Positions 1,814 to 20,961 of a DNA stretch of 64,000 nucleotides are shown here, piece after piece; the first letter of the stretch is position 1, and every line of letters begins with the position of its first letter. A program made the position numbers and the translations under genes. The notes under the pieces are model-generated. The model made no database searches. It was given only the letters and a program-made list of their open reading frames with translations, and was not told where the DNA came from. The DNA is taken from positions 186,001-250,000 of the forward strand of contig NZ_JAMXMV010000002.1 in the NCBI RefSeq assembly GCF_024055715.1, written 5' to 3'. Origin of the DNA: Actinoallomurus soli (GTDB lineage Bacteria; Actinomycetota; Actinomycetes; Streptosporangiales; Streptosporangiaceae).

Positions 1814-2476
1814 TTAGCGCAGGCGGAAGACCTGGCTCTGCGTCCGGACGCCGGCGCTCTTGGCCGAGACGACGTACGTCCCCGGCCGGGCGCGCGAGTC
1901 GCCGCCGCAGCGCGTACGGTCCCAGTCGACGTCCGCGATGTACGGGACGCCGCGCCGCAGGAGCCGGGGCTCGGACGCGGGGCGGTCGGCGCACCGATCG
2001 GACGACCAGACCGGGTCCGAGCCAGAGGTGATCCGCAGCCGCAGCGCCTTCGCCCCCACGTCGAACGTGCAGGCCCGGCGGCCGGTGTTCACCACGCTGA
2101 TCCGGAAGCGCGGGTGTTCCTTGTCCTGATAGATGTCCTTGGTCGGTGTGAGCCCGACGACCACGTCCGCGTCGTCGCAGGGGTCACCCTTGCGCGGCGC
2201 CGCGGCGGGCACGCCGGCGGTCACCGTGACCGTCACCGTGGGCGTCGCGGCGGCCGATGGGGCGGCCGGTGTCACCGCGGGAGTCGGGGTGACCTGCAGC
2301 GGCGTCATCGTGGTGGCTGCGGCGTTTCGCACCTGGGCCGTCGGCTTCTTGTGATCGGGACCCGAGCAGGCCCACGCCATCAGGCCGATGGCGGTGATCC
2401 CCCCGGCGAGAACGTAGACCCGGCGGCGCCAGTAGGCGTCCGCCTCCCCCAGGTCCCCGTGTGTGTCGGAGTCCAT
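1814..2476 (-). CDS. Membrane-anchored secreted protein, DUF4232-like
   Basis: 220 residues of unknown function. An N-terminal cytosolic stretch (MDSDTHGDLGEADAYWRRR) is followed by a membrane segment at about residues 22-37 (VYVLAGGITAIGLMAWAC). A Thr/Pro/Ala/Val-rich extracellular linker runs to about residue 95. The C-terminal domain of about 120 residues has Cys at CDDADVVV, ACTF, DRCAD and RTRCGG, which suggests two disulphides in an immunoglobulin-like fold. The Cys after the membrane segment could instead be a lipobox. It is transcribed divergently from mutY, with 66 bp between the starts. Confidence 0.65.
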   Translation of the reverse strand: MDSDTHGDLGEADAYWRRRVYVLAGGITAIGLMAWACSGPDHKKPTAQVRNAAATTMTPLQVTPTPAVTPAAPSAAATPTVTVTVTAGVPAAAPRKGDPCDDADVVVGLTPTKDIYQDKEHPRFRISVVNTGRRACTFDVGAKALRLRITSGSDPVWSSDRCADRPASEPRLLRRGVPYIADVDWDRTRCGGDSRARPGTYVVSAKSAGVRTQSQVFRLR

Positions 2477-2542
2477 ACGCTGAGTATCCTTTTTCGATCA
2501 GTGCGTGCCATCGCGACCCGCCGTGCCAGGATCGAACTCACC

Positions 2543-3418
2543 ATGCACCGACCTACCTACGCCGAGCCCATTCTCAGCTGGTACGCGCAGAACGCACGGG
2601 ATCTCCCGTGGCGCCGGCCGGACGCCTCCCCCTGGGCGGTCCTGGTCAGCGAGATCATGCTGCAGCAGACACCGGTCTCCCGCGTCCTGCCCGCGTACGA
2701 GGCGTGGCTGACCCGCTGGCCCACCCCCGCCGCGCTGGCCGCCGAGCCGCCCGGTGAGGCCGTCCGCGCCTGGGGACGGCTCGGCTACCCCCGGCGCGCG
2801 CTGAACCTCCACGCGAGCGCCCGCGCGATCGTCGAGCGCCACGGCGGACGGGTGCCGTCCGCGTACGACGACCTGCGCGCGCTGCCGGGCGTCGGCGCGT
2901 ACACCGCCGCGGCGGTGGCGAGCTTCGCCTACCGGCAGCGGCACGCCGTCCTGGACACCAACGTGCGCCGCGTGCTGGCCCGGATGGTCACCGGCGTGGA
3001 GTACCCGCCGAAGACGCAGACGGCCGCCGAGGTCCGCCTCGCCGAGTCGCTGCTGCCGCCGGACGCCGAGACGGCCGCCACCTGGGGCGTGGCCGTGATG
3101 GAGCTTGGCGCGCTCGTCTGCACGGCCCGGGCTCCGCGCTGCGCCGACTGCCCGGTGACCGCGTCCTGCGCCTGGCGGCTGGCGGGCAAGCCCGCGTACG
3201 ACGGCCCGGCCCGGAAGGGCCAGACGTACGCCGGGACCGACCGCCAGTGCCGGGGCCGCCTCCTCGCCGTCCTGCGGCACGCCAGCGGTCCGGTGGAGCG
3301 CGCGGCGCTGGACGACGCGTGGGACGACGTACGCCAGCGGGAGCGCGCCCTGTCGTCCCTCATCGAGGACGGCCTCATCGACCCCCTGGACGACGGCCGC
3401 TTCGCCCTCCCCCGCTGA
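2543..3418 (+). CDS. mutY: Adenine DNA glycosylase MutY
   Basis: Removes adenine mispaired with 8-oxoguanine in base-excision repair. The 291-residue protein has EIMLQQT with the catalytic Glu at residue 37, the helix-hairpin-helix LPGVGAYTAAAV, and the catalytic Asp at residue 138 in LDTNVRR. Both residues fall at the E. coli MutY numbers, which supports the ATG at 2543. The [4Fe-4S] ligands are spaced C-x6-C-x2-C-x5-C in CTARAPRCADCPVTASC. The C-terminal 8-oxoG-recognition domain is reduced, as is common in actinobacterial MutY. An in-frame extension upstream is not protein-like. It is divergent from the secreted-protein gene. Confidence 0.93.
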   Translation: MHRPTYAEPILSWYAQNARDLPWRRPDASPWAVLVSEIMLQQTPVSRVLPAYEAWLTRWPTPAALAAEPPGEAVRAWGRLGYPRRALNLHASARAIVERHGGRVPSAYDDLRALPGVGAYTAAAVASFAYRQRHAVLDTNVRRVLARMVTGVEYPPKTQTAAEVRLAESLLPPDAETAATWGVAVMELGALVCTARAPRCADCPVTASCAWRLAGKPAYDGPARKGQTYAGTDRQCRGRLLAVLRHASGPVERAALDDAWDDVRQRERALSSLIEDGLIDPLDDGRFALPR

Positions 3419-17601: not shown

Positions 17602-17604
17602 GTG

Positions 17605-20600
17605 ATGTTCTACGCGGACCTTCATATCCATTCGAAGTACTCCCGCGCCTGCAGCAAGGACTGTGACCTTGAACACTTGGCCTGGTGGGCCGGGCGCAAA
17701 GGCGTATCGGTCGTGGGCACCGGGGATTTCACGCATCCGGCGTGGATGGAGGAGCTGCGGCAGAACCTCGTTCCCGCCGAACCGGGGCTGTTCCGGCTGC
17801 GGCCCGAGCTGGAGCGGCGGGTGGCCCGTACACTACCGCCCGCCTGCCGGGCTCCGGTGCGCTTTCTGCTCTCCGTGGAGATCTCGACCATCTACAAAAA
17901 GGGTGAACGCACACGGAAGGTGCATCACCTTCTTTATGCTCCGACGTTCGAGGCGGCCGAGCGCATCACCGCCGCCCTGTCCCGCATCGGGAACCTGACC
18001 TCGGACGGGCGGCCCATCCTCGGCCTCGACTCCCGGCATCTGCTGGAGATCACGCTGCAGAGCGACCCCGGGTCCTACCTCATTCCGGCGCACGTGTGGA
18101 CCCCGTGGTTCTCGGTGCTGGGGTCGAAGTCCGGTTTCGACGCCGTCGCCGACTGCTACGACGACCTCGCGGACCACATCTTCGCCGTGGAGACCGGTCT
18201 GTCCTCCGACCCCCTGATGAACTGGCGGGTCGGATCGCTCGACCGGTACCGCCTCGTCAGCAACTCCGACGCGCATTCCCCGCCCGCGCTGGCCCGTGAG
18301 GCGTCGGCCTTCTCGACGGACCTGGACTACTACGCGCTGCGCGCGGCGCTGGAGACCGGTGAGGGGTACGCCGGCAGCGTCGAGTTCTTCCCCGAGGAGG
18401 GCAAGTACCACCTCGACGGGCACCGCAAGTGCGGCGTACGGCTGGAACCGGAGGAGACCAAGGCGCAGGACGGCCGCTGCCCGACCTGCGGCCGCCCGCT
18501 CACCGTAGGCGTGCTCTACCGCGTCGACGAACTCGCCGACCACCCGGAGGGACGCCGGCCCGAGGGCGCGGCGGACTTCCGCAACCTCATCCCCCTGCCG
18601 GAGATCGTCAGTGAGATCCACGGGGTCGGGCCGCGCTCGAAGTCCGTCCTGGGCAACATCGCCGAACTCGTGGCGGCCCTCGGGCCGGAGCTGGCGATCC
18701 TCGACGAGGTGCCGCTCGACGACGTGCGCCGCGCGGGCGGCGAGCTGCTGGGCGAGGCGATCGCCCGGCTGCGGCGGGGCGAGGTGATCCGCGAGGCCGG
18801 GTTCGACGGCGAGTACGGCGTGATCCGTCTCTTCGAGGCGGGCGAACTCCGCCGGGAGGGCAAGCGCGCCGTCGGCCTCATGGGCGCGCCCGACGACTCG
18901 GGCCTGTTCGACCTGCCCGAGCCGTCCGCCGCGCCCGCCGTACGGGGCGCGGCGCCGGTGGTCCGCGAACCCGGCCTGTTCGACGTTCCGGGCGCCGAGG
19001 ATCGTCCGTCTCCGCTCGAGAGCACCGCCCCCGCGCCCTCAGAGCCCCGTGAGGAGGTCGAGGAGGCCGTCCCCGACGATGAAACACCGATCGAGGGCCA
19101 ACAGGACATCCTGGAGGCCGTCGAGGCCGTCGAGGCCGACAGGGCCGACGAGGCCGACAGGGCCGACGAGGCCGTCGAGCGGCCGCTCCCGGCCGGGGAG
19201 GAGACGTCGGTCCTGGACGGGCTCGACCCGGACCAGCGCGCCGCGGCCGCTCATCCCGGCGGGCCACTGCTGATCATCGCGGGGCCCGGAACCGGCAAGA
19301 CCCGTACGCTGACGCACCGCATCGCCCACCTCGTCGGCGAGCGCGGCGTCCCGCCCGAGCGGTGCCTGGCGATCACGTTCACCCGCCGCGCCGCCGAGGA
19401 GATGCGCGAGCGCCTCGACGCCCTCCTGCCCGGCCGCGCCCGCCGGCTCACCGTGACGACCTTCCACGGCCTGGGCGCGTTGATCCTGCGGGAGCAGCAC
19501 ACCCGCGCCGGGCTGCCCGACGGCTTCCGGATCGCGGACGAGACCGACCGGCTCGAAATCGCGCGGGAGATGACCGGCTCGGACAAGGAGGCGCGGCGGC
19601 TGCTGGCCGAGTTCGACCGGCCGGAGGGCGACGGCGGGCGGGACGAGTCCGAGTCCCGCAGCGTGTTCGAGAAGCTGCTGCGCGAGCGCGGCCTGGCCGA
19701 CTTCACCGACCTGCTCCGCCTCCCCGTACGTCTCCTGGGCGAGGACCCCGAGCTGGCCGGGATCTACCGCGACCGCTGGCCGTGGATCAGCGTCGACGAG
19801 TACCAGGACGTCGACGAGACGCAGTACGCCCTCCTGCGCCTGCTGACCGGCCAGAGCCGAGGGGACGGCGGGCCGCCGACCGGGGAGAGCCCGGGGGATG
19901 AGAGGCCGGCCGGAGAGAGCACGGGGGACGGCGGGCCGACCGGGGAGAGCACGGCGGACGGCGGGCTGACCGCGATCGGTGACCCGGACCAGGCGATCTA
20001 CTCCTTCCGCGGCGCGGACGTCGGATTCTTCCTGCGCTTCCAGGAGGACTTCGCGGGCGCGACGACGGTCCAGCTGACCCGCAACTACCGGTCGGCGCCG
20101 GCGATCGTCGACGGAGCCGTGCGCGCGATCGCCGCCACCAGCCTGGTGCCCGGCCGTACGCTCGTCCCGCAGCGGTCCGGCGACCGGCTCATCCAGGTGC
20201 ACGAGACCGCCGACGCGCAGGCGGAGGCCGACCACGTCGCCGGCACGATCGACCGGCTGCTGGGCGGGGCGTCCTTCCACTCGATGGACTCCGGGCGCTC
20301 CGACGGCCACCACACCGACCACCTGGACTTCTCCGACATCGCCGTGCTGTACCGCACCGACGCGCAGTCCGAGGCGGTGATGGAGGCGCTGACGCGGGCC
20401 GGCATGCCGTACCAGAAGCGCTCGCACGACCGGCTGCTGGGCCGGCCCTGTGTCCGGGAGCTCGCGCACGAGCTGCGGCACCACGGCGGTCCGCTGCGCG
20501 ACCGGCTCCGGGCCGCGACGGGCGTGCTCGCCGAGGTACACGACGAGGCGGTGCTGCGGTCGGCGGCCGAGCTGATGACGCCGCTCGCCGGCCGCCACGG

Positions 20601-20961
20601 CGAGGATCTGGAGGCGTTCCTGGGCGAGCTGGCCCTAGGCGCCGAGGTCGACGCGTACGACCCGCGTGCGGACCGGATCGCGCTGCTGACGCTGCACGCG
20701 GCCAAGGGGCTGGAGTTCCCGGTCGTGTTCGTCATCGGCTGTGAGGACGGGCTGCTGCCGCTGCGGCTGCCGGACAGCGACGAGGCGGAGGAGCGCCGGC
20801 TGTTCTTCGTCGGCATGACGCGGGCGCAGACGCACCTGTTCCTGTCGTCCACGCGCCGCCGGGAGCCCTCGCCGTTCCTGCGCGCGATCCCGGCCGAGCT
20901 GGTGACCCGCCCGGAGGCGGCCCGCCGCCGTCCCCGCGACCGGCAGCTACGGCTGCTCTGA
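17605..20961 (+). CDS. Fusion of EndoQ-like PHP endonuclease and UvrD/Rep helicase
   Basis: 1118 residues with two enzymes in one chain. Residues 1-420 match endonuclease Q, which nicks DNA 5' of deaminated bases: DLHIHSKYSRACSKD, GTGDFTHPAW, VSNSDAHSP, a zinc-finger-like KCG / CPTCGR pair, and the helical EIHGVGPRSKSV. Residues 421-535 are an acidic linker with repeated EADRAD. Residues 536-1118 form a superfamily 1 helicase: AGPGTGKTRTLT, ITFTRRAAEEMRERL, VDEYQDVDETQ, GDPDQAIYSFRGAD, LTRNYRS, TLHAAKGLEFPV, FVGMTRAQTHLFLS. A repetitive Gly/Glu/Ser insert (about 750-789) sits between motifs II and III. An in-frame GTG at 17602 is an alternative start. Repair of uracil or hypoxanthine lesions is inferred. 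Confidence 0.9.
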   Translation: MFYADLHIHSKYSRACSKDCDLEHLAWWAGRKGVSVVGTGDFTHPAWMEELRQNLVPAEPGLFRLRPELERRVARTLPPACRAPVRFLLSVEISTIYKKGERTRKVHHLLYAPTFEAAERITAALSRIGNLTSDGRPILGLDSRHLLEITLQSDPGSYLIPAHVWTPWFSVLGSKSGFDAVADCYDDLADHIFAVETGLSSDPLMNWRVGSLDRYRLVSNSDAHSPPALAREASAFSTDLDYYALRAALETGEGYAGSVEFFPEEGKYHLDGHRKCGVRLEPEETKAQDGRCPTCGRPLTVGVLYRVDELADHPEGRRPEGAADFRNLIPLPEIVSEIHGVGPRSKSVLGNIAELVAALGPELAILDEVPLDDVRRAGGELLGEAIARLRRGEVIREAGFDGEYGVIRLFEAGELRREGKRAVGLMGAPDDSGLFDLPEPSAAPAVRGAAPVVREPGLFDVPGAEDRPSPLESTAPAPSEPREEVEEAVPDDETPIEGQQDILEAVEAVEADRADEADRADEAVERPLPAGEETSVLDGLDPDQRAAAAHPGGPLLIIAGPGTGKTRTLTHRIAHLVGERGVPPERCLAITFTRRAAEEMRERLDALLPGRARRLTVTTFHGLGALILREQHTRAGLPDGFRIADETDRLEIAREMTGSDKEARRLLAEFDRPEGDGGRDESESRSVFEKLLRERGLADFTDLLRLPVRLLGEDPELAGIYRDRWPWISVDEYQDVDETQYALLRLLTGQSRGDGGPPTGESPGDERPAGESTGDGGPTGESTADGGLTAIGDPDQAIYSFRGADVGFFLRFQEDFAGATTVQLTRNYRSAPAIVDGAVRAIAATSLVPGRTLVPQRSGDRLIQVHETADAQAEADHVAGTIDRLLGGASFHSMDSGRSDGHHTDHLDFSDIAVLYRTDAQSEAVMEALTRAGMPYQKRSHDRLLGRPCVRELAHELRHHGGPLRDRLRAATGVLAEVHDEAVLRSAAELMTPLAGRHGEDLEAFLGELALGAEVDAYDPRADRIALLTLHAAKGLEFPVVFVIGCEDGLLPLRLPDSDEAEERRLFFVGMTRAQTHLFLSSTRRREPSPFLRAIPAELVTRPEAARRRPRDRQLRLL

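Follow-up and report, generated by a model that had tools for sequence, protein, structure and literature searches.

How might the damaged strand be removed once an endonuclease has nicked DNA beside a deaminated base? This question is raised by one gene in a 64,000-nucleotide stretch of the Actinoallomurus soli genome (RefSeq assembly GCF_024055715.1, contig NZ_JAMXMV010000002.1, positions 186,001 to 250,000; here called the window), which encodes an endonuclease Q (EndoQ)-like nuclease and a UvrD-type helicase in a single chain (Table 1). According to earlier work, EndoQ is chiefly an archaeal enzyme that has homologues in a few genera of bacteria; what follows its nick is a matter of proposals, one of which requires an unnamed helicase (PMC4357722). 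A preliminary description of the gene had proposed a two-part enzyme, an EndoQ-like endonuclease fused with a UvrD-type helicase. The fusion is borne out here by sequence, structure prediction and conservation; a C-terminal motif of the sliding-clamp-binding type had been overlooked. We put at roughly 60% the probability that the protein is a clamp-docked strand-replacement repair enzyme, in which one polypeptide would nick 5' of deoxyuridine (dU) or deoxyinosine (dI) and peel off the damaged strand, both activities being predicted from sequence.

An EndoQ nuclease and a UvrD-type helicase in one reading frame

The fusion gene is a single uninterrupted frame on the + strand, which runs from a GTG at 17602 or an ATG at 17605 (start context GTGATG, 17602-17607) to a stop at 20961 and contains no internal stops. 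Its GC content at third codon positions (GC3) is 0.93, so the gene looks coding. The preliminary description had allowed that the halves might be two genes separated by a frameshift. The frame is intact, and such a frameshift or an assembly artefact can be ruled out because 17 of the 19 EndoQ-bearing genomes found among 41 (own genome included) encode both halves in a single frame.

Domain searches and structure prediction upheld the assignment of both halves. The signatures previously read in the N-terminal half (DLHIHSKYS, GTGDFTHPAW and a Cys pair) are present in the translation, and residues 4-411 match PfuEndoQ (PDB 5zb8) with an E-value of 6.6e-43. In a Foldseek comparison, the AlphaFold model aligned to the PfuEndoQ crystal chain 5zb8_B with a target template-modelling score (TMt) of 0.87 and a root-mean-square deviation of 3.0 over 416 columns; sequence identity in the structure alignment is 30%. 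The PHP nuclease has not lost its metal-binding residues: all mapped metal, catalytic and pocket residues are kept (H7, H9, E92, H107, H163, D222 and H224, with G198 and S200 in the pocket). In PfuEndoQ, zinc is held by E76, H84 and H139, and G169 and S171 line the pocket (PMC8307549). D222 aligns with Pfu D193, a place occupied by Asn in structure 7k30; Mac D192 is reported as an essential-residue mutant (PMC6202378).

To assess conservation, we aligned 56 full-length fused proteins, leaving out 14 close Micromonosporaceae rows. H9, E92, H107, H163, D222, G198 and S200 are conserved in 56/56 rows and H7 in 55/56. All 13 mapped EndoQ residues are kept in 142/148 fused frames (some genes fetched twice). 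The other six comprise a pair of frames in which Gln replaces the first His, one divergent gene present in duplicate (L166 and L184), and two rows with gaps at several of these positions. The zinc module was only partly as first described: the Cys pair is there, and the module reads His-Cys...Cys-Cys instead of four Cys, with the three Cys present in 56/56 rows and His at the first place in 55/56. The EndoQ half scores 146 bits on NCBIfam TIGR00375, below the curated cut-off of 326.6 that is passed in 0/396 genomes of the phylum. By this score the fused EndoQ is a separate subfamily outside the TIGR00375 cut-off.

The C-terminal half matches UvrD/PcrA helicases over residues 536-1086 (PF00580, 206 bits, cut-off 23; PF13361, 122 bits, cut-off 25.6). 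It aligns with Deinococcus radiodurans UvrD at an E-value of 1.5e-70, and the helicase half of the model reaches a TMt of up to 0.72 against the same protein. The superfamily motifs I, Ia, II, III, IV, V and VI were all found in the order that the preliminary description had given, and 16 checked residues in motifs I-VI are invariant in 56/56 fused proteins. The NCBIfam equivalog scores are not reached for PcrA (350 of 911 bits), UvrD (265 of 1144) or Rep (273 of 951). The stretch between motifs IV and V measures 204 residues in the window protein and a median of 209 in the fused proteins (range 187-313; 54/56 rows measurable), versus 279-312 in ten PcrA-type frames of related genomes. Only 88 residues follow motif V, versus 164-174 in the same ten frames, so the PcrA-type C-terminal extension is missing. 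Judged by these scores and lengths, the helicase half is not PcrA, UvrD or Rep proper. The motif IV-V stretch presumably holds subdomain 2B, which restrains monomeric Rep and UvrD; a reduced 2B would fit a helicase controlled by its fused partner.

The AlphaFold2 model, built with the 56-row alignment as input, has a mean predicted local distance difference test score (pLDDT) of 82 and a predicted template-modelling score (pTM) of 0.57, and it comprises two confident bodies. Confidence drops below pLDDT 50 in four longer segments, residues 423-500, 516-532, 754-783 and 1107-1118 (the tail), and at other places in three short stretches of 3-4 residues. We also modelled L099, a relative of only 962 aa; this second model has a mean pLDDT of 78.6 and a pTM of 0.50, with low-confidence stretches at 415-458 and 939-962, the same places as in the window protein, and some shorter ones. 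Both predictions are of single chains. The low pTM fits two bodies on a flexible tether, with which it is compatible without being proof of it. The segment at residues 754-783 (19864-19953) lies between motifs II and III and consists of Gly/Glu/Ser low-complexity repeats; motif II-III spacing is 61 residues in the window protein and has a family median of 27.

A conserved clamp-type motif at the C-terminus

The protein ends in QLRLL, a peptide of the sliding-clamp-binding type. The clamp consensus is QL[S/D]LF, in which positions 1, 4 and 5 matter most (PMC3919608). Q1114 is conserved in 56/56 aligned fused proteins. We examined 106 complete fused proteins, all distinct: 81 have Q[LM]x[LM][FLIMV] as their very last residues, 7 have the motif within 12 residues of the end, 14 carry looser variants and 4 have none by the patterns used (two of these with QLTLF or QLSLL further in, one ending in QMSFDF, and L081 ending early). 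As a control, 2,769 flanking frames of at least 150 aa (coding or not) gave 2 exact or near matches and 38 variants, and the motif was found in 0/13 other UvrD-superfamily frames (L002 and L006 being one gene). From this conservation we infer that the tail anchors the protein to the beta clamp; the model is then no longer that of a free two-part enzyme, but of one tethered to the sliding clamp.

TkoEndoQ binds PCNA through a C-terminal PCNA-interacting peptide (PIP) box, with a dissociation constant of 55 nM by surface plasmon resonance, and is stimulated by PCNA; its authors also pointed out clamp motifs in EndoQs from bacteria (PMC4858679). In our EndoQ tree, the five basal solo EndoQs end in QLSLL, QMRMF, QMRLF, QMKLF and QKELF. 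These five are the only ones of 27 solo EndoQ rows with a Q..[LM][FL] ending; two of the others are cut by contig ends and the rest lack it. In the window's own family, 9/12 solo EndoQ regions end in P[TA]LF, with the Gln absent. Fused proteins carry the motif at the helicase end and sometimes a second copy in the linker: behind the EndoQ half, Q..L[FL] occurs in 18/106, and LF or LL without Gln in 55/106. These patterns suggest that the motif probably stood at the end of EndoQ first.

Distribution and history of the fusion

Relatives were gathered by a scan of genome contigs, from which we took the best 80 of at least 583 loci, ranked by likeness to the window EndoQ. Seventy-five are fused and 5 are not, a share that overstates the frequency of fusion because the loci were chosen for EndoQ likeness and 42 of the 75 are from Actinomycetota. 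Many rows are close Micromonosporaceae. The remaining fused loci come from Pseudomonadota (7), Melainabacteria (7), Planctomycetota (4), Elusimicrobiota (4), Binatota (2), Myxococcota (2), Verrucomicrobiota (2), Chloroflexota (1, with a frame that ends at motif II at a contig end) and unnamed phyla (4); many of those outside Actinomycetota are metagenome bins. The fusion is thus found in nine named phyla; judged by this spread it is old and widespread. Bacteria with the fusion include genera known as antibiotic producers.

We also drew genome samples, each including its positive seed genome. EndoQ was present in 68 of 200 genomes of the order, with 35 frames of at least 1,000 aa and one further fusion (in genome G581) split by contig ends. 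In the phylum of locus L071, EndoQ occurred in 18/249 genomes (10 fused, 8 not, one of the 8 cut by a contig end); in that of L084, in 21/149 (10 fused, 10 solo, 1 unclassified); and in that of L100, in 32/117, with 24 frames of at least 949 aa and 8 shorter, classed by length only. The fused-type helicase (at least 587 bits; next match 455) was found in 36/200 genomes of the order sample, all within the 68 with EndoQ, and in 0/132 EndoQ-less genomes. Compared by eye, the 36 are the 35 long-frame genomes plus G581. Since the helicase half is absent without EndoQ and EndoQ is found alone, the helicase appears to depend on EndoQ and not the reverse. EndoQ genes are broken in 7 of the 32 genomes without the helicase (4 with internal stops, 3 in pieces) versus 0 of the 36 with it (Fisher p 0.0035). 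This suggests that EndoQ tends to decay more often once the helicase is lost, with sequencing errors as an alternative explanation for the breaks. No helicase frame was found near solo EndoQ in the 6.5-7 kb fetched for 12 solo regions of the window's own family. An unplaced helicase type occurs in three genomes of the order sample (G584:C27, G502:C19 and G459:C2): with 443-455 bits on the model of the fused helicase, it is intermediate between the fused type and all others, and two of the three genomes have a solo EndoQ.

Pairwise distances in the two halves are strongly correlated (Mantel r 0.87 over 82 proteins; 0/1000 permutations as high), so by this measure both halves share one history. 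In the EndoQ tree, a distant solo group and the group of L038 and L158-L161 branch outside the fused rows, among which further solo rows are nested. The tree implies 13 state changes, 10 of them forced by starred branches; of the solo rows, three are truncated at contig ends or divided between contigs. In the helicase tree the fused halves fall on one side except for one split gene, and the root branch is weak. The simplest reading of these trees is one early fusion followed by repeated loss of the helicase, with a root that rests on long branches. No clear separate EndoQ/helicase gene pair was found among the relatives. One locus (L112:6995-9923) has EndoQ and helicase in two overlapping frames, the helicase ending in QLTLF; we dropped it as an ancestral separate gene pair, as the split could be due to an assembly frameshift in metagenome data. 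Two genomes of different families, Rhodococcus rhodnii (L066) and Kibdelosporangium philippinense (L072), encode closely similar fused proteins, which could reflect either recent transfer or contamination.

Proposed mechanism and alternatives

In the mechanism that we propose, the order of events is inferred. The QLRLL tail, given its conservation, would dock the protein on the beta clamp. The EndoQ half would then flip out its deaminated target, dU or dI and perhaps also xanthine or an apurinic/apyrimidinic (AP) site, and, like homologous EndoQs that have been assayed and share these residues, nick directly 5' of it, leaving a 3'-OH and a 5'-phosphate, the ends reported for the EndoQ nick (PMC4357722). 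The flexible linker would pass the nick to the helicase half, which would load on the intact strand and move 3'->5' along it, peeling away the downstream lesion-bearing strand; 3'-5' is the direction of UvrD (PMC7776575). A DNA polymerase on the same clamp may extend the 3'-OH, with flap removal and ligation completing the repair. Polymerase strand displacement, flap cutting and ligation have been proposed to follow the EndoQ nick (PMC4357722).

Several observations weigh against this mechanism. The distribution is patchy, with 7/396 genomes of the phylum positive at E 1e-10, and the helicase is not always needed, because EndoQ stands without it in 32/68 EndoQ-bearing genomes of the order. The window tail departs from the QL[S/D]LF consensus, having Leu for Phe at position 5, and in evenly drawn samples of two other phyla only 7/17 complete C-termini fit the strict pattern, the remaining 10 having looser forms such as QLTLNW and QLSFF. 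One divergent fused protein (L184, the same as L166; G879:C126) has lost several EndoQ metal residues and keeps its helicase half and a QLQLF tail; it is possibly a fusion whose nuclease half now serves structure. The host genome also has four uracil-DNA glycosylase (UDG)-family matches and one endonuclease V (EndoV) match (239 bits), so the fusion is probably one of several dU/dI repair routes in the host.

The same evidence can be read in other ways. The helicase might serve EndoQ itself, by opening the duplex or tracking single-stranded DNA at replication forks for base inspection, or by removing EndoQ from its product, with the clamp tail leading the protein to the fork. PfuEndoQ also cuts uracil and hypoxanthine in single-stranded DNA (PMC11354406), and both the conserved tail and the finding that the helicase half never occurs without EndoQ in 200 genomes, while EndoQ is found alone, agree with such a role. 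We nevertheless consider it unlikely: the five basal solo EndoQs also have clamp-type tails, which means that docking alone leaves the helicase unexplained, and the best-known role of UvrD is to peel away strands that have been nicked (PMC7776575, PMC7690668). The EndoQ half could instead read another lesion, such as AP sites or oxidised pyrimidines, as part of a general incision machine. Known EndoQs already cut both (PMC8307549), the fused EndoQs form a separate subfamily by their TIGR00375 score, and the host has other enzymes for dU and dI; the residues with which PfuEndoQ keeps out normal bases (H139, G169 and S171) are, however, kept as H163, G198 and S200 in all 56 proteins, and a shift of substrate is in our judgement quite unlikely.

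A dual incision, with EndoQ cutting 5' and EndoV cutting 3' of the lesion and the fused helicase lifting out the short piece between, seems improbable. The same order was proposed for dI, with EndoQ and EndoV cuts and then 'removal by helicase activity' (PMC4357722), and the window's genome does encode EndoV; yet EndoV would be of no use for dU, a helicase is hardly required to lift out two or three nucleotides, and beyond this one genome no link between the fusion gene and endoV was seen. Very improbable, finally, is an anti-phage or anti-plasmid nuclease-helicase resembling Gabija, which combines the nuclease GajA with the UvrD-like GajB. PADLOC helicase profiles do match the helicase half (RTasHel of the DRT system at 243 bits, GajB at 232 bits) and the distribution is patchy, but the matches span common UvrD motifs only, no defence nuclease that could act as a GajA partner was found among the twelve neighbouring frames scanned, and the kept EndoQ pocket and clamp-type tail suggest housekeeping. 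Searches of phages (1e-10), plasmids (1e-60), viral contigs and PHROGs gave no relatives, and with no matches at these thresholds a phage, plasmid or viral origin was rejected.

We thus prefer the clamp-docked strand-replacement enzyme. A broader and more tentative claim, to which we give slightly less than an even chance, is that at least nine phyla possess a glycosylase-independent pathway in which one clamp-docked chain incises and strips, the clamp motif having moved from the EndoQ end to the helicase end at fusion.

Gene layout and neighbourhood

The features of the fusion gene are listed in Table 1. The gene stands alone: on its 5' side lie lsr2 and a ClpC/ClpB-like ATPase gene, both divergent, and on its 3' side convergent RDD-family genes. 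One convergent RDD-family gene overlaps the 3' end of the fusion gene by 15 bases (20947-20961), which comprise most clamp-motif codons and the stop.

The preliminary description had drawn support from disA (91-951) and mutY (2114-3418) as nearby DNA-damage genes. They lie 14-17 kb upstream, with about a dozen predicted genes between, and at this distance we rejected them as functional context. Flanking frames were clustered for the best-80 loci, with 14 near-copies of Micromonospora dropped. Among the 14 largest clusters of the 2,766 frames, no neighbour of the fusion conserved across phyla was found; the examples listed for cross-phylum clusters are for the most part alternative frames that overlap the fusion gene, and one further such cluster, transporter-ATPase-like, covers 9 loci. 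Clusters internal to Actinomycetota cover 7-11 loci each.

Table 1. Features of the fusion gene, with positions in the window and residues of the predicted protein.
Feature	Residues	Position	Strand	Basis and remarks
EndoQ-UvrD fusion gene, whole		17605..20961	+	Frame and translation; 1,118 aa; alternative GTG start 17602
EndoQ half: PHP nuclease and zinc module	1-411	17605..18837	+	PDB match, alignment, structure
Zinc module	H273, C276, C292, C295	18421..18489	+	Alignment; His replaces first Cys of PfuEndoQ
Linker (~110 residues)	about 423-532	18871..19200	+	Mostly pLDDT <50; variable between relatives; LFD at 434-436
UvrD/PcrA-type helicase half	536-1106	19210..20922	+	Pfam, PDB match, motifs, structure
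Motif I / Walker A, AGPGTGKT	559-566	19279..19302	+	Alignment
Motif II, DEYQD	731-735	19795..19809	+	Alignment
C-terminal QLRLL, sliding-clamp-binding type motif	1114-1118	20944..20958	+	Alignment, family counts

Comparison with known systems

Each of the three elements, the EndoQ nuclease, the UvrD helicase and the clamp motif, is known by itself. In the hit lists as far as viewed, we found no title or abstract opening that describes an EndoQ-UvrD fusion, and papers naming both proteins treat them apart in the portions available. PG1037 of Porphyromonas, which lies in an operon with uvrA and pcrA, was dropped as a candidate split version, as its authors describe a zinc-finger-SWIM protein (PMC3747172), and it is set apart on that description. 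The fused helicase and clamp-type tail suggest which helicase acts after EndoQ and how it arrives; if the proposed mechanism is true, a one-chain incision-and-unwinding machine would be added to DNA repair.

With its N-terminal half the fusion protein shares fold and active-site residues, and with its C-terminus a clamp-type motif, with endonuclease Q (PfuEndoQ and TkoEndoQ, and the bacterial enzymes of B. pumilus and B. subtilis). Unlike TkoEndoQ, which stands alone with 421 residues (PMC4357722), the fusion adds a UvrD-type helicase and bears the motif at the helicase end, and unlike PfuEndoQ the fused proteins have His for one zinc Cys. The helicase half has the fold of UvrD, PcrA and Rep and all their motifs in order, but with shorter motif IV-V and C-terminal stretches. 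Docking of a helicase-nuclease on the beta clamp by a short motif, as proposed for the fusion, is found in Escherichia coli RecBCD, through QVEMEF of RecB; RecBCD, unlike the fusion, acts on double-strand breaks, has several subunits and another nuclease, and carries the motif internally in RecB (PMC13254535). A parallel in the order of events is UvrD in nucleotide excision repair and mismatch repair, where incision is followed by a helicase that strips the damaged strand. There separate proteins act in turn (PMC7776575, PMC7690668), whereas the fusion combines the two predicted activities in one chain.

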